A stretch of 64,000 nt of DNA, taken from positions 71,883,579 through 71,947,578 of the forward strand of contig CM034533.1 of assembly GCA_020002185.1 (NCBI GenBank), given 5' to 3'. This stretch comes from Paraescarpia echinospica (lineage: Eukaryota; Annelida; Polychaeta; Sabellida; Siboglinidae). Below are positions 4,775 through 53,017 of the stretch, one piece after another; positions within the stretch are counted from its first letter, which is position 1, and each line of letters starts with the position of its first letter. The notes below the pieces were generated by a model. The model made no database searches. It was not told the DNA's origin and saw nothing but the letters and a program-made list of their open reading frames with translations. A program made the translations under genes and the position numbers.

Positions 4775-29007
<24,233 letters not shown>

Positions 29008-32016: not shown

Positions 32017-32129
32017 ACGGAAACTCCCTAACTGATTTAAGTTGTTATGGTAAATTGTACAACTCCTTCATGTATCGATATTCTAGTGATATTATGAGAT
32101 TATACACCTTACTTTATGTAGCTGGATAC

Positions 32130-32460
32130 TACGGTGGCTGAGAGAGGACATAGCAAAATTTTATTTTTGGGGAGAGGATATAGCAAAATTTTATTTTTTG
32201 GAAGAGGATATAGCAAAATTTTATTTTTTGTCTTCGAAAAATATTTTTTACGGTGCCTGGGAGAGGACATAGCAAAAATTTATTTTTGGGGAGAGGATAT
32301 AGCAAAATTATATTTTTTGGAAGAGGATATAGCAAAATTTTATTTTTTGTCTTCGAAAAATATTTTTTACGGTGGCGGGGAGAGGATATAAAAAAAAAAT
32401 ATTTTTAGTTATTTTTATCTCGAGATCTCGATGTTTTATCTCGAGATCTCGAGTTATGAA
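32130..32460. repeat. Left subterminal array of the IS3EU-like element
   Basis: Two units of about 125 bp. Each starts with an end-like TACGGTG motif and contains three sub-repeats of the type GAGGATATAGCAAAATTTTA. After a third TACGGTG (about 32369) there are two CTCGAGATCTCGA palindromes (32419-32453). Confidence 0.93.
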
Positions 32461-33815
32461 AGCGAGGCGAGTGAGAAGAACGTCGTGATTCATGGTCATG
32501 AATGCGGAAAAGTCGTTTGATTGATAAGTTTATTAGCTGAAATCATTTAGATTGGTATAATTCGTAAGGCACACCATTATGTACATTATGATAGTTCGTG
32601 AGTGTGTAGGTGGAGTCGTAGCCTTACTGCAAGTTACGCCACGGACACGGTTTAAGTTAGGAGTTAGGACCTTAGGCTTAGCCTTAGGCTTAGCCTTACT
32701 AGGTGATCGATAGACGATAGCTGGGCCAACTAACCAAATTTGGTATAGTTGTGGCTTAGGACCATACATAACTTATACATATATACGGTGTCGACTTATT
32801 AATATAAGCTGACGTCATGCCATTCGATCAACGCCAGATATTAAAATTATTGTCAAAAACGTCACATGACATTCGCCTTGCTACGAGGTTTGCGCTGCAT
32901 ACGCTAGATGGCAGCATTTAACAGTTCTCCAGCAGACAACACTGGAAGAAGAGGAAAATGTCAAAACTTGTTCCTATTTTGGCAACTGCAAAACGCAAAG
33001 CAAATTAATACAAGCTTGTATTATCCCCTTTGAGCAGCGGTAGTAGCATCAGCATTTGTTTGCGGACGCCTCTGAACTAGCACGTGGTTCTTGGACATGG
33101 GAAGTGGTCCACCTCATTCAATTGCCAGTGTCGGTGAACGTTCCGCTCGCGTATCTCACTCCATCTACTCCTGGCGGAGGTGATAGGATCAACAATATCC
33201 ATTAGCCCACTGACAGTAATTATAAATCGACTGACTTAAGTCAATTTTAGCTCATACACACATCATTTCATGTGATATGTGCACTGTGGCTACTCCACAT
33301 ACAATTTAACCATAAGACTGTCACAGTTTAAATAGGGTTGAAACTAGAAAGGGCCCATGCACATTTCCTGAGCGCAACATAGTGAACTGTGTGTATCTGG
33401 TACTTCAGTTCAGAAATCTTGATGTGAGAACTACATTGTCTTCAGGGATTTGTGTAACCCAATGTTTGAGGTTAGGGATTAGTGATCTCACTCTAGAAAG
33501 GCATGTATATATTGGTCGTCTAATAAATTCCACGGTACTTCTCCAATGAAGACCATTTTGTAGCAAAATTTTGTGTATGTGGCTGAGCATTTCTGGGATG
33601 CCTATAAATAATTTTTCATTGATGGTTTATAAACCTTGATCAATGCTAAAAGAAACCTCCTAAAAACGTCCCTAGAAATGACAGCGTGGTCACATTGTTT
33701 TGTGCAGAACACGGTCACTGTTGTCTTTGCTCCGTTGTTGTCTGGGTAGGGCCAACATTCATCTTTCCTGATTTATCTATAATTTGCATTGTATTTTTAA
33801 TTTAAGGAAACCTTA
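32461..33815. other. Interior of the transposon, left of the HECT gene
   Basis: Contains a short TTAGGCTTAGCC-type repeat (32670-32697). No coding sequence recognised; presumably promoter and 5' UTR of the HECT gene. Confidence 0.4.
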
Positions 33816-36800
33816 ATGATGGAAATTGACGTGATGGAGTCTGGCAGTGGCATGTACGAATACCTTGCAAAAAGAAATGTGGCAGCCAACATATTGGCAA
33901 AAATGAAGGATGAAAAGGTACACATTTTAGCCCTTGGACAAATTTTGCTTATTATTTCTAATGTATTTTTATACTATATTCATTCAAACCCATTGCTGAG
34001 GTATTGAGGTGAGAACCTGACAATGTTTTTTCAAAAGTCAATAGTTGTTCCTAAATCAATCAAAAAATAAAGAATATAGCTAAATGAACAATTATAAAAC
34101 TACTTTCTGTCACAAAACCCTTCCTCAGTTGATACCCCCCAAAAAATTGAACAAACATGTTATCTTTTACTTATCACCCTGGTACACTTTCAACCCTATA
34201 CTAGAACAATACATATAGGCCATGAGCCAGAGGGTTTGTTGGTCCATTTTTAGGGACGAATGTGATTTTTGGCTAGGCCTACATCCCTAGAGATGGAAAA
34301 AAGGTGATAGCATTGCAGCACTCCCATATCCGCATATCCGCTATCCCCATATCCGCGACAACAAGTTTTCTATGAAATTGCTAATGGGGGCCTATACACA
34401 AACTACTATGGAATATTTACTATACATCTCAGTAGAATGAAAATTGGACAACGTGTGGTTTCAATGGCATGCTTTCCAAACATATCAAACTTATTTTCAT
34501 TCCTTGAGAATTGTGGATGTTGTGGTAATTGATCTACCACATCTCAAAATGTAATCCACAGCATTCAGGTTTTAAAAAAAATTACTTAAAATTCTGGCTA
34601 ATAACCACATGTATCCTCATTCGAGGTTCTTATTGCACCAGAATGTTGGATTACATCCCTAGATATGAAAAATATATGTGACTGCATTGCAGTACATACA
34701 TTCTTTTGTGTGAAATCACTCTTTTTAATCCTTTGCTCATTTCTGCGAAAACTATTTTTCTATGGAAACTGCTGAAGGCGTGGTCACGCACAAATCATTA
34801 TACAATAGTTATTATACCATATTATATCTTATGGGTATGATAATTGTACGTAATACGGCTGAAGTGTCATGTGTCATATACATGTGAAAATGGTTTTAAT
34901 ACCTTGAGAAATGTGGAATTTATGGCATTTTATCTACCGCGTCTCAACATGCAATCCACGCCATTCAGGCATTCAACAAAATAAATCACTTAAATGTCTG
35001 GCTAGTAACCTCATATATCCACATTCAAGGTTCTTGTTGCAACAGAATGGTCACTGGAGTTCAGGTTTTATTATGTAGACACAGCCTGTACATTTTATTG
35101 CAGTTATATGTATTATCATGACATTTAAATTTGCAGTTGTTGTCATTGAAATAAAATTACATTTTCTTATGTTAGCCACCTAAAGTTCTGACTGTAACAC
35201 TAACTAACATACTATGGACTTATAGACATTCAAATTATACAGGTACACAGTATTGAACATTTCACATGCATAATTAATTATGTCCTTAGTTGAGGTTGGA
35301 GACAGTGTTTAGTAATCACAGCCATCATCCAGTTCCTCCTCAGCTACACTTTCATCATTGTCAGTACTAGACATCTGATTGTCACAGTCTTGTAGTCTGT
35401 ACATATCAGTACATCTGTGTCCATTTGACAAGCAGACACACTTTGGCAGTTCACACTTCCTGGGACAACTGCATGCTAGTAGATCCAACATGGCACCGGG
35501 TGCTGGCTGACCTTCCATCCAGTGTACAACCAGTTGCTCAGTCCCATCTTCTCTTTCCAACTTCCAGCCTCTGCCAACTGGGGTCTGAGTCCTTGGGTCC
35601 TGCTCCAAACATCTTCTCCATATTGCAGCCTGGTAGTTTACGCATTGTGCATGTTTCAACAAACAGTCAGTGCATGGTGGCAGTTGGTGACTCTATCTCA
35701 CCTTTCTTTGCACAGAACAAGTGGTATCTCAGATCATTGACATTCACAGCAGAAGATTTTGGAGCGTAAAGACAGCATGTAAATGCCTCTAGTTTGTCCA
35801 TGAGATCTGGAGAGAGAGATCCCATTCCTGGCCCAGCATCCTGAATGAGTCCTGTGATTCTTTGTTGCTAGTCAAGAGTGATTTCTCAAAGAAAGCTGGG
35901 GGTGCTGCAATGCTATCACCTATTTTCCATCTCTAGGGATGTAGGCCTAGCCAAAAATCACTATGAGCATTCGTCCCTAAAAATGTACCGGTTGCCCAAA
36001 TTTTTGGTCTTGGCTCAAGGCCTAATAGGAAAGAACATTTTTCACTCTTAATTTGTATGCAAGTGTTTCATTTTATGTGTGTGTGTGTGTGCGTGCGTGC
36101 GCGTGTGTGTATTGGGATCAGCTTTGTCATGTTGTAAGTTGAATGTTGAACAGTGCCCAAAAGAGAACCCCATTGGCCACTAAAAATAATCAAAATAAAT
36201 CACAGCCATTTGCAAAACGGCCGCCATTTTGATTTTGTTTATTTCTTTATCATTTCAGATTGATGAATTCGCTATAACTCTGATGAGTGACGAGATGCTT
36301 GGCCAATACCTCTGTGTGGGAGATCGAGTGGCATTGGTCAACTATTGTAAACGAAAACTGGCTGGACATGTTGGAGACAACCAGCCAACCAGGAAGTCGA
36401 CACTTCTACAAAAGCTCCGGAAAAAATTTAAAGCATCAACAGAGGGTGCTAGCGAGGAGGCCAGCAGTCCGAATGCCGCAAAGAAGTATCGGCTAATCGA
36501 AATTGGCTGGTTACATTTTGATGATAATGTCGATGCGTACAGGCCAGTACGAATGAAGAAAGGAGGAGGAACCAGGTCAAGGCGAGTAGAAAAATCTGCA
36601 AAGAAAAAGGACCTTCTTACCATTGCAATAGATTTGTTTTTCCCAGGAGGAGAATCCAGTAAAGGATCTAGGTCGAAATTCGATTTCGATCTAGTTGACT
36701 TCAAAGAATGTGAAATCGATGCAGAAAATACAGTCGGTCAGCTATATGAAGATACAAATATCAGACTCCTAAGGTTTTATCTTCGAACTACTCCTCGTGA

Positions 36801-38121
36801 ATCGGAGGAGGAAATCGACTCGCCTCTGCCTACACTTCCATGGTTATCTTGCCATGGTAAATCTGCCGAAAGTGCATCGTCCTCCTCGGTTGCCGACGTT
36901 GTTGGAAACATTGCACGTTTTGTAAACACCACTACCTGTAGCAGCACTGCAGAGTGTCAGACCGCACCTCCTCTTGATGTACGCCAAGCGGTTGATGACC
37001 TTATTGAGGAAGTAAGTTTTTCACACGATGCCTCATTAGACTCCGAGATACGATTCGGGCCAGTCGAAGCTGGAGAATTTTGGAACCCCAGTGTCACTAT
37101 TCCCTACGAACCTGCTGACCATTCAACACCATGAAATTTGCGTCACCTCGTGATTAGTCGTGGAAATAGCCTCAATGAACTGACCGAAGCTTTCTCTGAT
37201 CCAGACATTCTGAATGACAATATATCGATAAGGCGCAAGGGCACAAATGGTGAACTAGAAGCCGGCGTTGGAGAAGGTGTAGCAAAGGACTGTTTGTCTG
37301 AGTTCTGGGAGGAGTTCTACAGCCGATACACTCTTGGTAATGACGTGAAAGTACCTTACTTGCGCCACGATGTTCACGAGTCCAAATGGAAAGCTGTAGC
37401 GCGAATAATCTTGTATGGCTGGAAAGAATTTGGCTACATCCCGATCGCACTGGCCCGAACGCTTATTGAGCATGCTCTGTACGGGAAGGCGTTCTCTGAC
37501 CTTAGAGAACAATTCCTCCACTACGTGGACACTGTCGAACGAGATATTATTCGAGTTGCACTGGATAACTTCAAGAAGGCTGACGAAATAGAGCTTGACT
37601 TTCTTGAAAACCACAATTGCAAGCGGGCTGCAACCACAGCAAATTTTGCCATGATTATAGACGAGATGGCCCATAAGGAACTCGTGCAAACGCCGATGTA
37701 TGTGATCGAGTGCTGGAGGAGTGTATTGCAGCCAAGGATGGGGCATCTTCAATTCGAAGAACTAAACCGTCTGTACGAAGGATTAGTTCTGACGAACAGG
37801 AAGGTTGTGAAGTGCATTGATTTTCCCCCGGAGGTTTCCGAATCAGAGAAGACGGTGTCCAAATGTTTGCAGATGTATGTCAGAGGACTTTCAGAAAAGA
37901 AACTCGGCGACTTCCTGCGATTCTGCACCGGAAGTGACTTACTTTCTTGCTCACGGATTCAAGTCATCTTTGTGACCATGTCAGAATTCGAGAAACGGCC
38001 CATTGGTCATACATGTGGAAATGTGTTGGAGGTGCCAACCAACTACGAAAACTACCCAGACTTCCGTGCTGATTTTGATCGCATTCTCGAGTCTAATGTT
38101 TGGGTGATGGATATCAATTAA
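33816..38121 (+). CDS. HECT-domain E3 ubiquitin ligase carried by the transposon (one in-frame stop)
   Basis: Exon 1 (33816-33917, donor AAAAG|gtacac) joins in phase to exon 2 (36259-38121, acceptor CATTTCAG). Across the junction the sequence resembles a SAM-like helical domain (ILAKMKDEK + IDEFAITLMSDEML ... GDRVALVNYCKRK). A basic/acidic linker follows. After a single TGA (37132-37134) the same frame continues with a HECT domain: NLRHLVISRGNSLNEL ... GEGVAKDCLSEFWEEFY in the N-lobe, and LGDFLRFCTGSDLL ... PIGHTCGNVLEVP in the C-lobe. The catalytic cysteine is codon 38014-38016. HECT ligases pass ubiquitin from an E2 via this Cys to substrates. It is about 656 codons plus exon 1. Exon 1 may have further upstream exons (TTTAATTTAAG precedes it). 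Whether it is one gene with a nonsense mutation or two proteins is open. Confidence 0.78.
34216..36024. mobile_element. Nested element in the HECT-gene intron
   Basis: Inverted ends of about 110 bp. Left from 34216 and right ending at 36024 both read TAGGCC(A/T)TGAGCCA inward, then share TTTTTAGGGACGAATG and GGCTAGGCCTACATCC. The body holds a decayed minus-strand gene (35309-35770). It makes up most of the HECT intron; target duplication unclear. Confidence 0.72.
35309..35770 (-). pseudogene. Cys-rich transposon-associated protein fragment
   Basis: Read on minus: VNDLRYHLFCAKKGEIES, then (after a one-base frameshift) LPPCTDCLLKHAQCVNYQAA, IWRRCLEQDP, VHWMEGQPAP and the Cys cluster CSCPRKCELPKCVCLSNG, ending in an acidic tail. 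I recall this LPP-x4-L-x-x-H / C-x-C pattern from uncharacterised multicopy proteins of invertebrate transposons. Function unknown. Confidence 0.55.
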
Positions 38122-39434
38122 TAGAACCGAAATGTGGGCTACTGCACACCGTCATCAGCGTGTTTAACACGGCAACGAGACATGCAGTTGACACATAGGC
38201 ATATGGGTCTCATGTGGATCCCGAGTGTAGAATCCTACAGGCCAGCCCTCATAATATGGGCCCACGTACCATATATGGACTTGCTGCCTGGCAATAAGTG
38301 TTTCGTTTAATTACGTTCGCATGTTACAATGGACGGCATGCGCTGTTTTTGCTATGTCCTCTCCCAGGAACCGTTTCGTTTAATTACGTTCGCGTTTTAC
38401 AATGAACAGCATGCGCAGTTGAACATAACCAAACATGAAAGTCTTCCGGGTGTGTGGTAAAATGTTAATTAGCTTACCAACGTAATCCGAAGTTTCAGTT
38501 AAAGCATTATTAATTGGTAATTTAGGGTTTGTTTAATGTGTGTTACGTATACATAATTGAACACTAATTAATAAAGCAGTTAATCGATAAATATTGATTG
38601 TTTGCTTTTTCCTTATTCATTCAATTTATACTAGGGGTGTCACACTAAAATTAATCAGTAATCAAAGCACAATTTCATTATGTTAAATTGATAAAGCATT
38701 TTGATACGGAAAAATTACACGTACACACACACCATTATATAAATCTTGGATTTCAGAAAGTCTTGAATATTCCATAACTGAGACAACATCAGCGTTTCAT
38801 CAAAATGTCATACTAAAGAATTTAGACAGGTCTCTTCTTGATTAAAAGTCATACAGATTCATCAACTGAATTTTGCTTTACCCAGAATAAATAGGTAAAC
38901 GTGTGTGAGGCTGTGATATAGCTAGCTGCTAGTCTAACATCAGTACACTTCAGTTAATAACAGTTATCAATTTATTGATAAAAAAATTACAAAGAGCGAA
39001 AAATGTACCAGTTCTGGTAGCACAGTATAATGCGTATTTCATGGTATACATCCAAATAGCAAGACCGTTTTGGGACAGCCATTGTACCGTTGACGTTGGG
39101 TGATAATTGTTGGGCCAACGTTGTGTAATCAAAACAATGTTCAAGTCAAACGAGCTTAACGTTCCAACACTAGTCCAACGTTGGTTCAACGACTGACCAA
39201 ATACACGTAATTAGACATTTATATATTCTTGTATAACAACTGGGGCCATCGTTGGGTCAACCACCCGTTGGACCGTCGTGGTGCCAACATTGGGCTAACG
39301 CAAAATTTAACCACATTAGTCCAAAGTCTGTCTGTTACCTGGGCACTGTACTGTGTATGTTGTACAATTCACTCAATACCTCCGGTTTATATCCGAAGTA
39401 ATTCTACATACCGTCATCACCAAAATGTGTAATT
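38122..39434. repeat. Spacer between HECT and integrase genes
   Basis: A copy of the terminal unit (GCTATGTCCTCTCCCAGGAA, 38350-38369) lies between two copies of TTTCGTTTAATTACGTTCGC (about 38306 and 38374). At 39070-39340 many CAACGTTGG-like motifs suggest a small palindromic MITE. No gene. Confidence 0.7.
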
Positions 39435-41151
39435 TTAGGCTAGAGCTACATTCACGATGTCTCTAAGAGTTTTGTACAAATCGATAGCCTCGTGTGGATT
39501 GCTTGGGAAAACAAGTCCATTCTCCTCTATCAAGATACAGCATAGCTCAAACATATCCTCATCGCATGGATAGTCAGATTTAAATCTACAATGCTCCTGG
39601 CAGATCCTGATCTTGGTATGGTCCACTGGACGAAGATAATCGTCAGCTTCAAACAACTCGGGTATGTTGTACATCATAAACGGCCGTCCGTGATTAAGGT
39701 TCATATTGTTGTATTTCCTGATCTTGTGAACGTTCCAAAGATGAGATACTTCACACAATTCATCCTGAAATAGAGACAAGATTATTTGTTTTATGACCCG
39801 ATTAATAGTATAGAAATGTAAATAATTTAAAAAACACAGCCATCATAGTCGGATATGGATTTCTTTGAATATGATCGTGCATTTTGGGACGCAATACTGA
39901 ACAGTTTGTATACTTCCAAAATTACCTTTAGTAATATCCTTGGGGTACTAAGTATGCCCCAAAATTCAACCATTGTTGTTTGCATAAAAATTAGGTATAT
40001 ATACAACTGTATATATATACAGCTGTATATATACCTAATTAAGTATATATACAACTGTATATATATATACAGCTGTATATATACCTAATTTTTATGCAAA
40101 CAACAATGGTTGAATTTTGGGGTATATATATATATACAGTTGTATATATACCTAATTTTTATGCAAACAACAATGGTTGAATTTTGGGGCATACTTGGTA
40201 TCCCAAGGATATTACTAAAGGTAATTTTGGAAGTATACAATATATATATATATACAAACTGTACCATTGGCTGCATGTACATTTGCATCTTCATCATTGA
40301 GGTGAGGGTGATTACGGTGTGACAGAATTACAATATGACAAGAAAGAGTGGCCTATATAGGGGGTCTACATATATAAGAATTGAAACCCATGATTTAAAT
40401 TCACTTACTTGTATCAAATCCTTATGGAATAGTGCCATCCAATACTCGGAATTCTCCTTTCGCAGTATTCCCCACCATGATTCAATTCTTTGGTTGGCAG
40501 TGCTACGACCGTATTGGAAAGATCGCTCCTCATTGCCTTCGTCATTCTCTCTAAGAAATGTTTGTATTTGTTCAACGTGTCCATTTTCCGTACCACGATC
40601 TGCACGTACAATCTTTGGACAACAGCTATAGTTCAGAACAGCTCTGATGTAATATCCGCCAATAACTGCCTTGTTCTGTATGCTTCCAGCCACAAAATGT
40701 ACCTTGAAAAGCCGTCTATGCAACCGTTGATGCAGATTCCAAACGGCTTAAGTTTGTCATATGAATCCATGTGCCACACGTAATTCGGCCCTTTGACACT
40801 GTACCGACGGCGAATTAGCCTCCTCGCTCTTCGTAGTTCCACGCCTTCCGGATCAAGAATACCAAGAAGAATTCTGACCGTCTCTTTACTGACCACAAGT
40901 CCATTGGTAATGCACTTCAAATGCATGAACCTATATCCGTGTAATTGCCCTGAGGTTGCAAGCTGATTCCGGATAAAGTCAACTACTTCGTCAAAATCAG
41001 TAAAATATTTCCGCCTATATAACTGCAACCTGGCGAGGACACGCCTCAACTGTCTTACACTTATACTGCAGCTGAATCTTCTTGATAGAACACACCGTAT
41101 TTCATGCTGACTTAGTCCAAGATCAAAAATACTTTTCACGGTAGCATCCAT
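39435..41151 (-). CDS. IS3EU-like integrase/transposase (one frameshift, at least one intron)
   Basis: Exon 1 is 41151 to 40409 (donor CAA|gtaagt); the next exon is about 39764 to 39435 (acceptor CTATTTCAG). The start MDATVKSIFDLGLSQHEI leads a helix-turn-helix-like region and the QLHGYRFMHLKC block. The DDE core follows: WHMDSYDKLKPFGICINGCI with first Asp codon 40765-40767, KIVRADRGTENGHVEQ with second Asp 40598-40600, and NQRIESWWGILRKE with Glu 40481-40483. A one-base-type frameshift near 40690 separates the first Asp from the rest, so this copy is probably inactive. The exon-2 join is uncertain: the frame before the acceptor (MSLFQ) also resembles the family, so an exon may be missed in 39780-40400. 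Confidence 0.78.
39901..40262. repeat. Foldback element in the integrase intron
   Basis: GTATACTTCCAAAATTACC at 39908 is mirrored at 40220-40238. About 95 bp of arm matches, with TATATATAC expansions and a partly duplicated inner arm (GCCCCAAAATTCAACCATTG and its complement, twice). Confidence 0.9.
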
Positions 41152-41187
41152 GCTGGCTTTCGTCCTTTGATCAGCCTAGCATTTAGA

Positions 41188-41740
41188 ATTCGAGATCTCG
41201 AGATAAAACGTCGAGATCTCGAGATAAACAATATTTTTCGAACAAAAAAATAAAATTTTGCTATATCCTCTCCCCCAAAATTAAATTTTGCTATGTCCTC
41301 TCCCAGGCACCGTAAAAAATATTTTTCAAAGACAAAAAGTAAAATTTTGCTATATCCTCTTCCAAAAAATAAAATTTTGCTATATCCTCTCCCCAAAAAT
41401 AAAATTTTGCTATGTCCTCTCCCAGCCACCGTAGGCTTTCGTCCTTTGATCAGCCTAGCATTTACAATTCGAGATCTCGAGATAAAACGTCGAGATCTCG
41501 ATAAACAATATTTTTCGAACAAAAAAATAAAATGTTGCTATATCCTCTTCCAAAAAATTAACTTTTGCTATATCCTCTCCCCAAAAATAAAATTTTGCTA
41601 TGTCCTCTCCCAGGCACCGTAAAAAATATTTTTCAAAGACAAAAAATAAAATTTTGCTATATTCTCTTCCAAAAAATAAAATTTTGCTATATCCTCTCCC
41701 CAAAAATAAAATTTTGCTATGTCCTCTCCTAGCCACCGTA
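41188..41740. repeat. Right subterminal array of the IS3EU-like element
   Basis: Mirror of the left array but longer: two blocks (41224-41435 and 41512-41740), each with end-like TACGGTG motifs and TTTTGCTATATCCTC sub-repeats. Each block is preceded by paired CGAGATCTCGA palindromes (41188-41225 and 41468-41505). Confidence 0.93.
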
Positions 41741-42252
41741 GGATACAATATATGTTTGCTATGTATGTTTATTGATGTAGATTATCTCCCGTTGGTTGCA
41801 TTCGATATAATTATTCGGAAAACGAGCCCAAGCCCGGCGAAACCTAGTCGACTTGTAGGCCCATTTGCATACGTTGTTTTGACTAAAATTGGATTCATGT
41901 GGAACCGTAAGATAACTGCTTGTTCCTCTATGATGACTAGTGTTTGTATTATGTCGGAAAATTACACAATAACTCGTTCTGACGCTCGTTTCAACCCAAA
42001 AACTATACTTGTAAACATGCTCTGAATGCATGGAAAGGGTCGGCCTGATGCGAGTTTGAGTCATAAGTGACGTCACATCTCGGCATCCCGAAAAGCGCGC
42101 CAAAAATATGCATATTCGAAAATGTCCGGATGTACAGCATAAAATGTGGAATTTCTAATTCATTGAATTGTTTTTGCTTGGTGGACGTGGAAACAGATAG
42201 CAGGATGCAGTATAACATGAATTCAAGCAATATATGTTTTTATTCCCTTTAA

Positions 42253-43008: not shown

Positions 43009-43144
43009 TGGTGGCAGCGCTCACAACGAACCCGCTCACCAAAACGGGCGCAATAAAAGCAGATACACATTGACAGTCCGCCGACCTCACGGCGCAAACA
43101 GCTAGCCGAAACGGCTCTGTATCACTAGCAGGTGTGGTAACAAC

Positions 43145-46100
43145 ATGGCTAACAACATGCAACGCGCACCGAGACAGTGGTGCCTCACAAAAACGGAAAC
43201 GGTCAACACATTTGAGAACTGGCGCCAGAACCTCGTCTACACCCTCTCACTCGACCCAAACTTCGCCCAGTTTATCGCCACTGACGCTAAATGGGAGAAG
43301 CGATGTGCAGCACATCCAAACCGCGGCTTCACCGACGAGAATGATCATACAGCCATTCAGCAAGCCTACATGCTCGATCTAATGTTAGGCCAAATAGCGA
43401 ACTATTGCCCAGTCATATCGCGCAACACGATCGCCAAAAACTCAACCAGTTTATCCGGTATCTGGCAAACTATCCGACTGCACTATGGGTTCCAGTCTAC
43501 AGGGGCCCATTTCCTGGACTTTGCTGATATCCACCTACAAGCTGACGAACGCCCCGAAGACTTGTATCAGCGCCTAGTGGCCTTCGTTGAAGACAACATG
43601 CTACAAGAGGGAAGTGTCATTCTGCACCACGGTGACGTCATACACGTTGACGAAGAAATGTCTCCTTCCCTAGAGAACATGGTAGTACTGACCTGGTTAC
43701 GACTTATCAACCCCGCACTGCCTAAGCTCATAAAGCAACGATATGGCACAGAGCTGAGGTCAAGAACACTAGCATCGATCAAGCCAGAAATATCACAGGC
43801 ACTCGAATCACTACTAGACGAGATTGCGTCTGCTGACACCGCAAAGGTTATGCGCACCGAGACTAGGCCTAACCTACGCGGACAAAGACCAGCGTTCTCA
43901 AGACGACAACCGGCACCATCTAACAACCCTAGGCGTCCCACGAGCGTGAAGACTTGCCCTCTTTGCAAACAAGTAGGCCGCAGTGATGTACACCACTTCC
44001 TCAGCGAGTGCTCGTACCTTCCGGAACAAGATCGCCGCTACATGGCTAAGGTACGACAAGTCAGTGATATCATCGACGGAGTCGATGAAGGCGACGACGA
44101 TACCTACGAAGTTTATGACGAACGCCCCGTAAACACCACTACCGTGCAACGTATCGATGTACGACAATCGCCTTACCTCGACGCGTTCCACGACCATCAC
44201 GCCGTTCGAGTGACGATCGATAGCGGTGCAACGGGCAATATGATCCGTCATGACACGGCAGTGAGATTGGGGTGTACTATCAAGAACTCTTCCCAATCGG
44301 CTCACCAAGCTGACGGATCATCGCCTCTAACCATAGTTGGCGAAATTACCATATCACTCGCCCGCAAAAATAAATCATTCCAGTTCTGTGGACTAGTGGT
44401 ACAGAATCTGGATGTCGAGATGCTGGCCGGGACACCATTTATGGAAGTCAACGACATTACCATCCGTCCCGCCAAACGAACCATCACCCTCGCAGATGGC
44501 ACCACGTACACATATGGTACAACACAGAGGGCCCTCAACAGGCATGCAGTCCGCCGTGCCCACATACTGCGAGCACCACCAACCAACATCACTGTGTGGC
44601 CAGGCGACTTCGTGGAAGTCGACCTGCCTTCAGACGCGTATATCGCAGACGCCACATTCGCTCTGGAACCACGTCACGATACCACCGGCAACAAAGGAGT
44701 ACACGAGAACGATGTGTGGCCACAACCTTCACTAATCACCAGCGTAGAAGGTGTATTGCGCATACCAAATCTCACGAACTCCACTCGCACACTGAAAAGA
44801 AACGAACACTTTTGCCAAATCAGAGAAGTGTTCGTACCCGACAAGGCAACATCCATACCAGACAGTCAATGCACCAGCGTAGCCGTAAGCATACGCACAC
44901 GCAGCTCGAATGCTACTGCCATCAAACACTCAACAGCGGTCACCATCGATCCTGATCACGCGCTCTCCCCCGACGAACGAGCGGCATTCCGATCGATCGT
45001 GGAAGAGTATGACGACGTATTCGACCCAAGCTACAGTGGATACAATGGTCACGTGGGACCATTCAAAGCTGTTGTCAACATGGGCCCAGTACAACCGCCC
45101 CAACGTAAAGGACGCCTACCCCAATACGCACGAAACCAGCTCGTAGAACTCCAAAACAAGTTCGATGAACTCGAGATGATGGGCGTGTTCGTCCGGCCTG
45201 AGGATGTACCGGTCAACGTCGAGTACCTCAACCCGTCATTCCTGATAAAGAAGCAAAGCGGAGGACACCGACTCGTCACTGCCTTCACTGACGTAGGCCG
45301 CTATAGCAAGCCGCAGCCTTCATTGATGCCTGATGTCGACAACACCCTACCAAAAATCGCACAATGGAGGTACATAGCGACTACCGATATGTCCAATGCG
45401 TTCTACCAAATCCCTCTATCGCGTGAATCAATGAAGTACTGCGGAGTAGTCACTCCGTTCCGCGGTGTACGCGTATACGCTTGCTCAGCGATGGGCATGC
45501 CCGGGTCCGAAACCGCACTCGAAGAGCTGTTGTGCCGCGTACTGGGAGATCTACTCGAAGAAGGTGTCGTCGCCAAACTGGCAGACGATATATATTGTGG
45601 AGGAAACACCATCGCCGAACTCCAACAGAACGTAAGACGATTGCTCCAAAGCTTCGCCAACAGCGGGTTGCGCCTGTCCGCTGCCAAAACAACGATGTGC
45701 CCTACTACGACCACGATACTTGGCTGGGTGTGGAACCTCGGCTCCATCCATGCAAGCCAACATCGCATCGCCACCCTAGCCAGCTGCGACGCTCCACTCA
45801 CAGTCAAAGCGATGCGAGCATTCGTCGGAGCCTACAAAATGCTAGCACGCGTCATACCAGGATGCTCCGCCTTGCTTGCCCCGTTCGACGAAGTAACGGG
45901 TGGCAAACAGTCAAGTGATCGCGTCACATGGACCGATGCATTAAGAGAAGCCTTCAAACACGCACAAACCAGTCTTCAGACTAACAAGGCTATCACATTA
46001 CCTCGGCCAAGTGACGAACTATGGCTAGTGACGGACGGCGCTGTCAAACAGTGCGGTCTAGGAGCCACCTTGTACGTGATGCGCAATGGCAAATTGATGC

Positions 46101-48022
46101 TGGCCGGATTCTTCAGCGCAAAACTCCGCGGACGACAGATCTCCTGGTTGCCATGCGAAGTAGAAGCACTATCCATCGCAGCCGCTATCAGACATTTCAG
46201 CCCGTATATCGTACAGTCAGCGCACAACACAGCGATACTCACAGACAGCAAGCCTTGCGTACAAGCCCACGAGAAGCTTTGTCGCGGTGAATTCTCCGTC
46301 AGCCCGCGCGTATCGACATTCCTATCAGTCGTCAGTCGGTACCAGGCAACTACTCGCCATCTCGCCGGTTCAGCTAATGTTCCATCAGACTTCGCGAGTC
46401 GCAACGCACCCACATGCCGGGAACAACAGTGCCAAGTGTGCTCCTATATACGACAGACTGAAGAGTCAGTCGTGATGCAACGCGTTACAACAGACGACAT
46501 AACATCTGGGAAAGCTCGACTTCCGTTCACCAATCGTTCAGCGTGGCTCGGCATTCAAGCAGACTGCCAAGACTTGCGAAGGACTCATTCACACCTTACA
46601 CAAGGAACACAACCATCCAAAAAGGTGACAAACGCGAAAGACGTCAAAAGATACCTTAACGTCGCATCAATCGCTCGTGACGGTCTACTGGTCGTACAAC
46701 GTAACGACCCACTGAGTCCTACACGAGAGTGCATCATCGTACCGCGAAAAGTCCTAGACGGACTAGTAACGGCCCTGCACATCCAACTGGATCACCCGTC
46801 TTCGTACCAGCTAAAGCAAGTCATGCATCGCTATGTATTCGCTCTCGACCTCGACAAGTCTGTCGAGTCCACCTCGCGCAGCTGTCATCACTGTACGTCG
46901 TTACGGAACACCCCAAACCTAACTATCGCGCAATCTACCAACGATCCCCCAGAAGTAGTGGGTATCTCATATGCAGCCGACATCATCAAACGAGAAAGAC
47001 AACTGATATTGGTGCTACGCGAGTGTGTAACATCATACACGGTAACATGCTTCGTCAACGACGAACGACGCGACACGTTACGGGACTCCATCATTCAACT
47101 CTGCATCGGCCTCCGACCGCTTGATGGACCTCCTGCCGTAATACGCACAGACCCAGCTCCTGGATTCGCAGCTCTCGTCAACGACGCACTGTTGAACAAG
47201 TATCGACTCACCATCGAACTAGGACGGGTCAAAAACATCAACAAAAACCCTGTGGCCGAAAAAGCCATTCGGGAACTCGAGGGTGAAATTTTACACCAAC
47301 AACCAACAGGCGGCGCCATCACGCAGGTGCTACTGTCTGTCGCTATTGCCAACCTCAACGCCCGAGTACGAAACAGAGGAATGTCAGCTCGTGAGCTGTG
47401 GACCCAGCGTGACCAATTCACCAACGAACAATTACCACTGAACGACTATAGCATCATTCAACAACAGCATGCCTCGCGCAACGCTAACCACGAACACAGT
47501 CAAATATCGAAGTCTCCTCGCGGTTCAGTACCCAGACCCCAACATATCGACATTGGCGACATCGTGTACTTGTACTCAGACAAGAGTAAACTACGCTCCA
47601 GGTGTCGGTATCTCGTAGTGAGCACAGAAGGAGAATGGATCAACATCAGCAAGTTCGCCGGTAACCAGTTGCGTGCCACGTCATACAGAGTGAAGCGAAC
47701 AGAGTGCTACAAGGTGGCAGCTGAAGCTACCCACGATCTTCCAGTGTCGTACCAGTATGACGAACTAACACCCGCAGATGACCCAGCTCCTCCAGAGAAA
47801 CCTCCAGACGTACCAGTTCAACTCTCGTACCCTCCAGTCACAGCAGCTCAGCCCGTAGAACCATCAACAGCCGAGTCTCATCGACAAGAAACGGCGACAG
47901 TCAACAACGAATCGACAATGTCATACGAGCCAGATCAACATAGCTGTCCGCCCGAGGAACCTCCGAGACGCTCTACAAGAACTCGGAAGCCTCCTGAGTA
48001 TCTGAAAGACTTCATCTCATGA
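43145..48022 (+). CDS. Gag-Pol polyprotein of Ty3/Gypsy retrotransposon
   Basis: 1625 codons without a stop or frameshift. Gag occupies about 1-340, with a zinc-knuckle-like CPLCKQ...HHFLSEC near 270. The aspartic protease motif TIDSGATGNMI is near 358. The RT spans about 690-900, with the catalytic motif L-A-D-D (about 812-815) in place of the usual Y-x-D-D and a preserved TDMSNAFYQIPL block. RNase H begins LVTDGAVKQ near 964. The integrase zinc finger has H...H near 1211 and CHHC near 1246; its catalytic Asp, Asp and Glu are near 1279, 1335 and 1372. A Pro-rich C-terminal tail follows. Gag and Pol are one fused frame. It should copy and integrate the element's cDNA; activity is inferred from intactness. 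Confidence 0.93.
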   Translation: MANNMQRAPRQWCLTKTETVNTFENWRQNLVYTLSLDPNFAQFIATDAKWEKRCAAHPNRGFTDENDHTAIQQAYMLDLMLGQIANYCPVISRNTIAKNSTSLSGIWQTIRLHYGFQSTGAHFLDFADIHLQADERPEDLYQRLVAFVEDNMLQEGSVILHHGDVIHVDEEMSPSLENMVVLTWLRLINPALPKLIKQRYGTELRSRTLASIKPEISQALESLLDEIASADTAKVMRTETRPNLRGQRPAFSRRQPAPSNNPRRPTSVKTCPLCKQVGRSDVHHFLSECSYLPEQDRRYMAKVRQVSDIIDGVDEGDDDTYEVYDERPVNTTTVQRIDVRQSPYLDAFHDHHAVRVTIDSGATGNMIRHDTAVRLGCTIKNSSQSAHQADGSSPLTIVGEITISLARKNKSFQFCGLVVQNLDVEMLAGTPFMEVNDITIRPAKRTITLADGTTYTYGTTQRALNRHAVRRAHILRAPPTNITVWPGDFVEVDLPSDAYIADATFALEPRHDTTGNKGVHENDVWPQPSLITSVEGVLRIPNLTNSTRTLKRNEHFCQIREVFVPDKATSIPDSQCTSVAVSIRTRSSNATAIKHSTAVTIDPDHALSPDERAAFRSIVEEYDDVFDPSYSGYNGHVGPFKAVVNMGPVQPPQRKGRLPQYARNQLVELQNKFDELEMMGVFVRPEDVPVNVEYLNPSFLIKKQSGGHRLVTAFTDVGRYSKPQPSLMPDVDNTLPKIAQWRYIATTDMSNAFYQIPLSRESMKYCGVVTPFRGVRVYACSAMGMPGSETALEELLCRVLGDLLEEGVVAKLADDIYCGGNTIAELQQNVRRLLQSFANSGLRLSAAKTTMCPTTTTILGWVWNLGSIHASQHRIATLASCDAPLTVKAMRAFVGAYKMLARVIPGCSALLAPFDEVTGGKQSSDRVTWTDALREAFKHAQTSLQTNKAITLPRPSDELWLVTDGAVKQCGLGATLYVMRNGKLMLAGFFSAKLRGRQISWLPCEVEALSIAAAIRHFSPYIVQSAHNTAILTDSKPCVQAHEKLCRGEFSVSPRVSTFLSVVSRYQATTRHLAGSANVPSDFASRNAPTCREQQCQVCSYIRQTEESVVMQRVTTDDITSGKARLPFTNRSAWLGIQADCQDLRRTHSHLTQGTQPSKKVTNAKDVKRYLNVASIARDGLLVVQRNDPLSPTRECIIVPRKVLDGLVTALHIQLDHPSSYQLKQVMHRYVFALDLDKSVESTSRSCHHCTSLRNTPNLTIAQSTNDPPEVVGISYAADIIKRERQLILVLRECVTSYTVTCFVNDERRDTLRDSIIQLCIGLRPLDGPPAVIRTDPAPGFAALVNDALLNKYRLTIELGRVKNINKNPVAEKAIRELEGEILHQQPTGGAITQVLLSVAIANLNARVRNRGMSARELWTQRDQFTNEQLPLNDYSIIQQQHASRNANHEHSQISKSPRGSVPRPQHIDIGDIVYLYSDKSKLRSRCRYLVVSTEGEWINISKFAGNQLRATSYRVKRTECYKVAAEATHDLPVSYQYDELTPADDPAPPEKPPDVPVQLSYPPVTAAQPVEPSTAESHRQETATVNNESTMSYEPDQHSCPPEEPPRRSTRTRKPPEYLKDFIS

Positions 48023-50120: not shown

Positions 50121-51992
50121 CTATGTGTATCCCGCCCGTCTGAGGTATGTGTCGATTTTATTTTTAAACATATTCACGCTACTAGCACCCACACAATCAG
50201 CAGGTAATCTGTTCCATTCATTTACAGTCCTTTGTGAAAATGAAAACTTTCTTATATCCAATCTACTCTGCTCCTTTGCCAATGTAAGTTCATGTCCTCT
50301 AGTCCTTCTATCTTTCTTAAATGAGAAAAAAATATTTATATCAATATTTTCATAACCCTTCAATATTTTAAACACTTCTATCTGATCTCCTCTCAATCTC
50401 CTGGTCTCTAGTGTTGTTAAACCGCATTTTTTTAGGCGTATTTCGTAACTAAGATCCCTCAGTTTTGGTATCATTTTAGTTGCTCTCCTCTGCACTCTTT
50501 CTAGCATATCTATGTCCTTCCTGCGATATGGCCTCCACGCTTGAATACAATATTCTAAATGAGGCCTAACTATTGTTTTGTACAGCGGTATTATTAGCTC
50601 TTTTTCCTTATACGTTATGTTTCGCCTAATTAATCCAAGGATTTGATTTCCCTTTGAAGCTGCAATTCCGCACTGCTCTGAAACCTTCATATCAGCACTA
50701 ATGGTTAACCCTAAGTCCTTTTCTTTTACAGTAGTACTTAGTACAGTACCCCCTATTGTATATTCTACTTCTTCGTTCCCATGTCCTGTGTGGAGGCATT
50801 TACATTTCCCAAAATTGAACAGCATTTGCCACTTTTCAGACCATTTGATCAACCTGTCAAGATCATCTTGTAAATGCTGTCTATCTCCATCACTTTTAAT
50901 CCTTCTAAACACTTTTGTATCATCCGCAAATTTCAACACCTTGCTTGTTATTTCATCATCCAAGTCGTTGATATATATTAAGAATAATATAGGACCTAAT
51001 ACTGATCCCTGTGGTACCCCACTCAATACTGATTTCCAGTTTGAAGCCTCCCCATCAACTACTACACGTTGTCTTCTGTCAATCAACCATTGTTCTATCC
51101 AGTTTATTATACCATTTCCTATGCCATGGGCCTTTAGTTTAAGCAGTAATCTTTGATGTGGTACTTTGTCGAAAGCTTTTTGAAAATCTAAATAGACGAT
51201 ATCTACTGGTGATCCCTCATCTACCCACTTAGTGATGTCTTCCAAAAAACATAACATATTTGTTAAGCATGACCTCGCTTTAAAAAAACCATGTTGAGAT
51301 GGGTTTATCAAGTTTTGTTTAACAAGAAAATCCACCATGTGATCTTTAATTAGTCTTTCTAACAATTTACAAATCACTGATGTTAAACTCACTGGTCTAT
51401 AGTTCTCTGACTTGTTTCTCGAACCTTTTTTGAATAACGGTATAATGTTTGCTTCTTTCCATTCTAAAGGAACCACTCCCTCTTCTAATGACAAATTGAA
51501 AACTGTTGCAAGCGGTATGCTAATTTGTTCTACAATTTCCAATAGTAGTTTGGGTGGAATACCATCCACTCCAGGTGATTTATTATCTTTCATAGCCCTT
51601 ATTTTCTTACCTACCATTTCCGGGGTTACAATTAATTGTCCTAAATAGTCTGAATCTGCCCCCTTGAACTTAGCCTCTGGTACTGGCAGTGAACTAATAT
51701 CTTCCCTGGTAAACACTGAACTAAAGTACTCATTCAGGTCTTCTGCCATTAAGAATCCCTCTGATATTATATTTCCAGCACTATCTTCTAGAGGACCGAC
51801 TTTATCTTGAACTTTCTGTTTGCTTCGAACATACGCATAAAAACTCTTGCTGTCATGTTTTATATTACTAGCTAATTGTTGTTCATAGCTTCTCTTTGAA
51901 TTTCTAATTTCAGCTGTAGCTTGGTTAAGTGCTTCTTTATAACTGTTGTAGTCTTCATCATTTCCAGTACATCTATATGACTTCCACATCAT
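50121..51992 (-). CDS. CR1 reverse transcriptase (ORF2 C-terminal part)
   Basis: A 623-codon open frame. Motifs: DNKSPGVDGIPPKLLLEIVE, NYRPVSLTSVICKLLERLIK, VYLDFQKAFDKVPHQRLLLK, SGVPQGSVLGPILFLIYIND and the catalytic KFADDTKVFRR. A C-terminal domain ends FKNKIDTYLRRAGYT. The upstream endonuclease is in other frames, so ORF2 as a whole is broken. Confidence 0.92.
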   Translation of the reverse strand: MMWKSYRCTGNDEDYNSYKEALNQATAEIRNSKRSYEQQLASNIKHDSKSFYAYVRSKQKVQDKVGPLEDSAGNIISEGFLMAEDLNEYFSSVFTREDISSLPVPEAKFKGADSDYLGQLIVTPEMVGKKIRAMKDNKSPGVDGIPPKLLLEIVEQISIPLATVFNLSLEEGVVPLEWKEANIIPLFKKGSRNKSENYRPVSLTSVICKLLERLIKDHMVDFLVKQNLINPSQHGFFKARSCLTNMLCFLEDITKWVDEGSPVDIVYLDFQKAFDKVPHQRLLLKLKAHGIGNGIINWIEQWLIDRRQRVVVDGEASNWKSVLSGVPQGSVLGPILFLIYINDLDDEITSKVLKFADDTKVFRRIKSDGDRQHLQDDLDRLIKWSEKWQMLFNFGKCKCLHTGHGNEEVEYTIGGTVLSTTVKEKDLGLTISADMKVSEQCGIAASKGNQILGLIRRNITYKEKELIIPLYKTIVRPHLEYCIQAWRPYRRKDIDMLERVQRRATKMIPKLRDLSYEIRLKKCGLTTLETRRLRGDQIEVFKILKGYENIDINIFFSFKKDRRTRGHELTLAKEQSRLDIRKFSFSQRTVNEWNRLPADCVGASSVNMFKNKIDTYLRRAGYT

Positions 51993-52168
51993 TTGTTTGT
52001 ACTTAATTTTTCTAATGGCTTCTTTCGATAAGTGTTTCTTTTTGGACCGTTTTCCTTGTTTTTTGAAGGGTACAAATTTATCGACTATGCACTTAATTTC
52101 ACTCTTTAATACATTCCAGCATTCTGTTGCCGTCTTATTTTTCAGTGTGTTATTCCAGTCTATCTTTG

Positions 52169-53017
52169 CTAAATATTCCTCATGTCCTTATACCTTCCTT
52201 TGTGGAAATTTCTCCTATACTGCTTTTTACTATTCCTTTCTGATTTTACTTTGATGATAAAATGTATCTGGTTGTGATCGCTACTCCCCAGTGGCTCACA
52301 TATCTTGACATTGTCAACTAATTCATTCTGTGAGGACAAAACTATGTCTAACACATTCTCACACCTGGTTGGTTCTAGCACATGTTGAGAAAGGAATGTA
52401 TCTTGAACTAAAACTAAAAACTTGTGGTCCTCACTCCCCGTACTCTGTAGAGATTTCCATTGTATATGCCCGTGGTTAAAATCCCCATAATAATACAGTC
52501 CCGTTTGCTTACTTCCCTTATAGCGTTTTGTATTTTTTCATTCTCTTCTATGCTTATGTTTGTACTTCGATAAACTAACCCAACTGTTAACGTTGAGTTT
52601 CCTGTAACTATGTTACACCAAACAGCTTCTTCGCAATCTGCTTCTTTTTTTAATTTTATTTCATAAGCCTGAATAGATTATTTAATATATAAAATAACTC
52701 CACCTCCCTTTCTTCCTATTCTATCTTTTTCTAAACATTACATATCCTGTCAGTCCCAATTCAGCATCTGATATATCGGTGGTGGTCCAGGATTCGGTTA
52801 TACCTATTATATGAGGGTCAATATCTTCTACCATAATGTTTAGTTCATTTTTTTTGTTTACTATACTCCTTGCATTTAAACAAACACATTTATATCCAGC
52901 TTCAGAAGAGTTTTCCACACTGTTATTTGCTGATTTATTTGTGCTGTCTTTATCTATGCCTCCATTTTCAGGCTTTTCTGTGAGTCCCCCCTGCGAATCT
53001 AGTTTAAATAGATGCAA
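52169..53017 (-). pseudogene. CR1 endonuclease domain, frameshifted
   Basis: The N-terminal part CVCLNARSIVNKKNELNI ... IIGITESWTTTDIS carries the conserved N and E of AP-type endonucleases. The C-terminal part ENVLDIVLSSQ ... GSSDHNQIHF carries the conserved SDH motif. Stops and shifts between about 52400 and 52720 (VGLVYRS- and GDFNHG-like remnants) break the domain. Confidence 0.85.

Follow-up and report, generated by a model that had tools for sequence, protein, structure and literature searches.

A predicted HECT ubiquitin ligase gene beside an integrase-type transposase in an IS3EU-like DNA transposon of the annelid Paraescarpia echinospica

The window analysed here is a stretch of 64,000 nucleotides from Paraescarpia echinospica (assembly GCA_020002185.1, contig CM034533.1, positions 71,883,579 to 71,947,578 of the forward strand), and it contains a 9611-bp DNA element at window positions 32130-41740 that carries a transposase gene and a gene with a HECT domain. 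A first-pass annotation had described an exactly bounded element with a 6-bp duplication and two genes in opposite orientation, and both descriptions were borne out. Direct reading placed both ends exactly at 32130 and 41740, with GGATAC duplicated on either side (32124-32129 and 41741-41746), and Pfam recognized HECT on the plus strand and the integrase core rva_4 on the minus strand. The left end of the element reads TACGGTGGCTGAGAG and the right end, reverse-complemented, reads TACGGTGGCTAGGAG; the termini are TACGGTGGCT..AGCCACCGTA, of the TACGG..CCGTA type. In the window copy both genes are defective, with a premature stop in the HECT gene and a frameshift in the transposase. The features are as follows.

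32124..32129, no strand: target site duplication, left copy, GGATAC (direct reading)
32130..32369, plus strand: left terminal inverted repeat starting with TACGGTGGCT, two 119-nt units of 30-nt repeats (repeat analysis)
33816..33917, plus strand: HECT gene exon 1, encoding 34 aa at the start of the SAM-like region
33918..36258, plus strand: HECT gene intron, GT..AG (inferred from the sequence)
34241..35989, no strand: inverted-repeat insertion of 1.75 kb within the HECT intron
36259..38121, plus strand: HECT gene exon 2, interrupted by a single premature in-frame TGA (37132-37134)
37135..38118, plus strand: HECT domain (Pfam), with the catalytic-position cysteine codon at 38014-38016
39435..39764, minus strand: transposase exon 2 (acceptor site and frame)
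39765..40408, minus strand: transposase intron (inferred from the sequence)
40409..41151, minus strand: transposase exon 1, DD38E integrase core, frameshifted (rva_4 in both pieces; start codon assumed)
41155..41433, minus strand: extra tandem copy of the right terminal region (repeats D1 and D5)
41434..41740, minus strand: right terminal inverted repeat ending in ..AGCCACCGTA (reading and repeat analysis)
41741..41746, no strand: target site duplication, right copy, GGATAC (direct reading)

The arms of the element are long inverted repeats composed of 30-nt units, and at 32123-32348 and 41522-41747 they pair over 226 nt, flanking bases included, with 95% complementarity. The 10-base terminus alone was dropped as evidence, as it occurs exactly at 862 places in the genome compared with 2125 for the reversed control pattern.

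The HECT gene comprises 655 codons, the premature TGA and the final stop included, and its HECT domain was matched by Pfam with E=3.1e-6. The frame of exon 2 is open in four other copies (L013, L017, L018, and L021), and a counterpart of exon 1 with an open frame is present in four of the five other copies read at length, one of which has GC replacing the GT donor. The exon junction, K|ID, falls within fish homologues that run uninterrupted. The HTCG cysteine noted at first pass was confirmed at codon 38014-38016; the histidine and cysteine of the HTC motif are invariant in 30/30 homologues, and the cysteine aligns with the HTC of the E6AP C-lobe (E=0.3, weak taken alone). The predicted structure shows a bilobal HECT fold with both lobes modelled, and fold comparison, which with the full-length model covered the HECT part alone, supports this assignment at an identity of about 15% to solved HECT domains. 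The SAM-like nature of the N-terminus is suggested only: the model of homologue P0034 has five helices across residues 1-60, and a Pfam SAM family (SAM_3) was matched in just 1 of the 30 homologues, with E=0.03. The HECT protein is predicted to be an E3 ligase that starts with a SAM-like part, continues through a beta-grasp-like region and a disordered linker, and ends in the HECT domain. The 1.75-kb intron insertion is present in all five other copies read at length, and it therefore predates the amplification of the family. It contains a cysteine-rich 127-aa frame on the minus strand, and its ends show no clear duplication.

Protein searches, which carry no genomic context, returned HECT homologues about 30-49% identical under the names of fish, limpet, abalone, pearl oyster, sea cucumbers, and fireflies. 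The first-pass suggestion that such elements could explain why HECT-like genes are multicopy in fish and invertebrate genomes fits the homologues found in those animals. No integrase domain was found in the ten HECT-query homologues scanned with Pfam, four of which are longer than 700 aa; in three of the long ones HECT was not matched either. Relatives of the gene were found neither in viral contigs nor in prokaryote genome contigs, where animal contamination was sought for linkage elsewhere. One protein, P0087 (635 aa), shares the N-terminal part of the HECT homologues and has a protein kinase domain (PF00069, 1.7e-48) instead of HECT, and the N-terminal module may be one that passes between effector enzymes.

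The transposase core was matched by rva_4 on two minus-strand frames (E=2.3e-11 and 3.4e-8) and has D-38-E spacing. Its division over the overlapping frames 40633-41175 and 40328-40747 reflects a frameshift in exon 1, where about 66 bp are missing from the window copy and present in all three copies aligned through that point; another copy has an open transposase frame of 350 aa (rva_4 E=1.2e-22). Homologue P0094 runs uninterrupted over the exon junction. The transposase intron contains an inverted-repeat insert at about 39906-40240, a near-perfect fold-back repeat with 114-nt arms of 98% identity that is also found in the deletion copy L013. In addition, a transposase remnant of about 68 aa (query residues ~94-163) was found at 29 places, nearly all with one TGA, which suggests a repeated non-autonomous family.

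The two genes have spread as a unit. With the 240-bp left terminal repeat as the query, 66 genome matches were obtained in 40 clusters. Opposed terminal repeats lie at most 20 kb apart at nine places, of which eight hold both genes, which answers the first-pass question whether full copies repeatedly contain the pair, and one (5.4 kb) holds neither as far as these searches show. In the 12-kb vicinity of the 22 unpaired repeat clusters, both genes were found at 8, HECT only at 1 (copy c13), transposase only at 2, which are one place (C6 at 23.22 Mb), and neither at 11. Among five further copies read at length, three are complete, with both ends and both genes (9111, 9179, and 9193 bp); all three share TACGG..CCGTA ends, and each has its own 6-bp duplication (GGGATC in c17, CGCATC in c21, and GCGTTG in c10). 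In copy c13 the end motifs and HECT remain, the transposase is lost and the flanks differ; c18 retains HECT with a partial transposase, and no right end was found in the stretch read. A 6-bp duplication was thus present in four of the six copies examined, the window copy included, and internal stretches of the five are 92-99% identical to the window copy, extending well past the gene.

Linkage was assessed across the 1.08-Gb genome from which the window comes, with searches that score the best candidates alone, so that all locus counts are lower bounds. The HECT-domain query gave 132 matches, merged to 91 detected loci; the transposase query gave 150 matches at 140 loci and a second-family transposase query another 150 matches, the two combined giving 161 loci. 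A transposase lies within 12 kb of 50 of the 91 HECT loci, compared with 0.33 expected randomly, and the orientation is convergent in 50/50. The first transposase query alone gave 47 linked HECT loci, compared with at most 4 in any of 10000 random draws. Grouped by identity to the window copy, linked loci numbered 34/46 at 70% or more, 8/19 at 35-50%, and 8/26 at 24-34%. Sixteen linked HECTs are just 25-48% identical to the window HECT, and these divergent pairs are not all independent, as some may stem from segment duplication or from one subfamily. From the transposase side, HECT was matched near 32 of the 39 loci with at least 75% identity. In a second family, L078 has an open HECT frame of 346 aa (Pfam HECT E=4.8e-7), 28% identical to the window HECT, with a convergent rva_4 transposase; its right end was not located in searches for it. 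Distantly related IS3EU families of the source genome therefore share this convergent gene pair, and its side-by-side recurrence suggests that the HECT gene has long belonged to the element. Separately, six stop-free HECT-like frames of 358-375 aa, 29-30% identical, lie at C14:28996798-30182051, C254, and C255 with no IS3EU transposase match within 12 kb, and are possibly host genes or domesticated copies.

Selection on the HECT gene, which the first-pass annotation had proposed to examine, proved weak within the family (omega 0.55-0.81) and clear between families only. The pairwise ratio of nonsynonymous to synonymous divergence (dN/dS) is 0.35-0.49 among the open copies L013, L017, L018, and L021. 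Of 28 between-family pairs within this genome, 21 show synonymous saturation, at a protein identity of 23-44% and dN of 0.53-1.0; of the other seven pairs, six have dN/dS of 0.40-0.61 and the seventh is identical. As dN is 0.53-1.0 where dS is beyond estimate, the HECT protein has outlived synonymous saturation.

Several results weigh against the HECT gene as a standard and functional component. In the codon model, the four open copies, which were chosen because they are open, gave omega 0.55 (twice the log-likelihood difference, 2dlnL, 6.3 vs omega 1), and eight copies gave 0.81 (2dlnL 1.7, not significant). Across 29 aligned sequences, namely the window copy and 28 of the 29 loci L010-L038 (partial L037 left out), changes found in a single copy are neutral-like (~1.2) and shared changes give about 0.77. 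A recent burst of copies from few sources would leave such a within-family pattern, and as evidence for constraint it is weak. Only three of the seven HECT stretches compared from other families have a single uninterrupted frame, and two of these three are identical. The linkage evidence comes from a single genome, in which transposase loci below 75% identity have HECT nearby in only 15 of 101 cases; 29 of these 101 are the 68-aa remnant and HECT diverges fast, and the remainder is unexplained. L085 has an open transposase frame, but the ~5.4 kb downstream of it hold a reverse transcriptase, and HECT was not found there. Copies with the same termini and no HECT gene, named at first pass as contrary evidence, do occur in part: no HECT match was found within 12 kb of 7 of the 39 transposase loci in the 75%-or-more class, the place on C6 beside a terminal repeat being one of them, and half of the unpaired repeat clusters have neither gene nearby, yet eight of nine two-ended places keep both. 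By analogy with other transposons, copies without HECT would be deletion derivatives.

Considering all the above results, we regard the window element as probably a now-defective cut-and-paste transposon of the IS3EU superfamily whose standard set is a transposase and a convergent HECT ligase acting in trans for the element. Its ends, duplication and two genes, the predicted HECT fold with a cysteine at the catalytic position, and the spread of the pair as a unit are the observations on which this reading is built. Integrase-type transposases and the duplications that they leave are well established and form the basis of the transposition scheme, in which the DDE enzyme would bind the repeated terminal units, cut at the TA ends and join them to target DNA with a 6-bp stagger. 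The HECT ligase would be expressed from the element and serve it in trans, because eight of nine two-ended copies and distant families retain the gene in the same place. Its HTC cysteine would accept ubiquitin from E2 enzymes of the host for transfer to a target in the nucleus, which the SAM-like and beta-grasp-like part would recruit. The likeliest class of target may be a host factor that limits transposition, such as a silencing or a repair/checkpoint protein, with the transposase second, although any particular target is a guess.

The transposase as the target leads to another explanation, self-regulation, in which the ligase ubiquitinates its own transposase and limits both its amount and the damage to the host. 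Both genes lie within one element, and SAM-like domains frequently mediate protein-protein contacts; the measurements do not separate such a target from a host protein. However, a self-limiting gene would be expected to disappear readily from selfish copies, yet HECT is retained in eight of nine two-ended copies, and we consider self-regulation unlikely.

Less probable still is that an ancestral IS3EU element captured a host HECT gene and has carried it since as a neutral passenger without function for the element. The weak selection within the family, the seven close transposase loci without a HECT match and the derivative bounded by terminal inverted repeats with neither gene are all compatible with a passenger, but a passenger is expected to decay, whereas the HTC motif persists in 30 of 30 homologues, dS is saturated between families, and HECT occupies the same convergent place at 16 loci (not all independent) despite 25-48% identity. 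A structural or DNA-binding helper role in place of ligase function, with the fold retained for another use, is very improbable for the HECT protein: the ~15% identity to solved HECT domains would allow it, and the invariant catalytic-position cysteine with its histidine, together with the modelling of both lobes, argues against it. Least credible is a multicopy host family that collected IS3EU insertions, since 41 of 91 HECT loci without a transposase within 12 kb and the C14 cluster of ~29% identical frames would agree with it, but in full copies both genes lie inside the termini and their 6-bp duplications, all 50 neighbours are convergent and internal stretches of five copies are 92-99% identical to the window copy well past the gene, which contradicts it for the window family. 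A single-copy host gene hit by insertions was rejected on 91 detected loci, 50 of them transposase-linked and all convergent, and on the bounded full copies.

We therefore return to a HECT ligase that acts for its element. Tentatively, and with rather less confidence, we suggest that animal IS3EU elements form an ancient lineage defined by a SAM/beta-grasp/HECT ligase as its second gene, which the element needs in trans against a host restriction or repair factor; most of the many uncharacterised HECT-domain genes in fish, molluscs, sea cucumbers, and fireflies would then be copies of it. Some viruses mark chosen host proteins via a ubiquitin ligase, and an element with its own ligase could, if this is true, do the same; unnamed animal HECT genes could then be transposon genes, not host family expansions.

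Other mobile sequences lie in the window. An open frame of 1638 aa at 43106-48022, about 1.4 kb downstream of the element, has RVT_1, RNase H, and sub-threshold gag-asp protease matches and resembles a polyprotein of the long terminal repeat type. Reverse transcriptase frames like those of long interspersed nuclear elements are found at 50121-52187 (688 aa, RVT_1 1.3e-34) and, similar by eye and piecewise, at 18303-20274.

Among known systems, IS3EU (with GingerRoot) is the closest in its defining characters. According to the accessible parts of PMC10045372 and PMC12730594, IS3EU elements have TA..TA ends with the motif TAYGG..CCRTA, 6-bp duplications and an integrase-type DDE transposase. The window copy and three full copies have TACGG..CCGTA ends and duplications of 6 bp (GGATAC, GGGATC, CGCATC, and GCGTTG), and the transposase is of the integrase type (rva_4, DD38E). 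IS3EU transposases have no HHCC zinc finger before the core, and no zinc-finger family was among the Pfam matches of the window, an absence that is weak evidence. In fungal TET+ IS3EU elements, as described in the same accessible parts, an alpha-kinase gene lies opposite the transposase with a TET/JBP dioxygenase in between (PMC10045372; PMC12730594), and therefore an enzyme gene in that position is a known layout; the window element has a HECT ligase there. The kinase domain of P0087 is reminiscent of this alpha-kinase.

The bilobal fold and HTC motif are common to the element HECT and the animal HECT ligases compared, UBR5, HUWE1, and E6AP/UBE3A; G2E3 is another animal ligase of this group. 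The element HECT differs in its ~15% identity, its SAM-like and beta-grasp-like N-terminus, its copy number and its location on a transposon. In the accessible text of a survey of animal HECT genes (PMC2837046), a term search found no word starting with "transpos"; likewise, HECT is absent from the accessible text of PMC12062965, on domains combined with transposon domains, and by term counts from the main texts of PMC10045372 and PMC12730594. No paper combining IS3EU and HECT was found, and the open-licence literature, as far as it was accessible and with Repbase entries outside the search, yielded no report of a transposon-encoded HECT ligase. This suggests that a HECT ligase in an IS3EU element is new among known cargo-bearing IS3EU and deubiquitinase-type transposons, Repbase being outside the comparison.

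Transposons with anti-silencing enzymes or ubiquitin/SUMO proteases are known (TET/JBP, SET, Ulp1, and OTU). Mutator-type elements with Ulp1 proteases, mentioned in the accessible part of PMC2836005, likewise carry a ubiquitin-like pathway gene, but it is a protease with a transposase of another superfamily, in plants and some animals. Ginger1 shares with the window element an integrase-type transposase and an enzyme of the ubiquitin/SUMO pathway, and in the accessible part of the same source a role of the ubiquitin pathway in transposition was proposed (PMC2836005). Its duplication is 4 bp (PMC10045372, accessible part), whereas that of the window element and its copies is 6 bp, and neither OTU nor Ulp1 was among the Pfam matches of the window. 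In Ginger1 the OTU or Ulp1 proteases are C-terminal domains of the transposase and serve removal of the modifier, whereas in the window element the predicted E3 ligase would attach it and is encoded by a separate, convergent gene.

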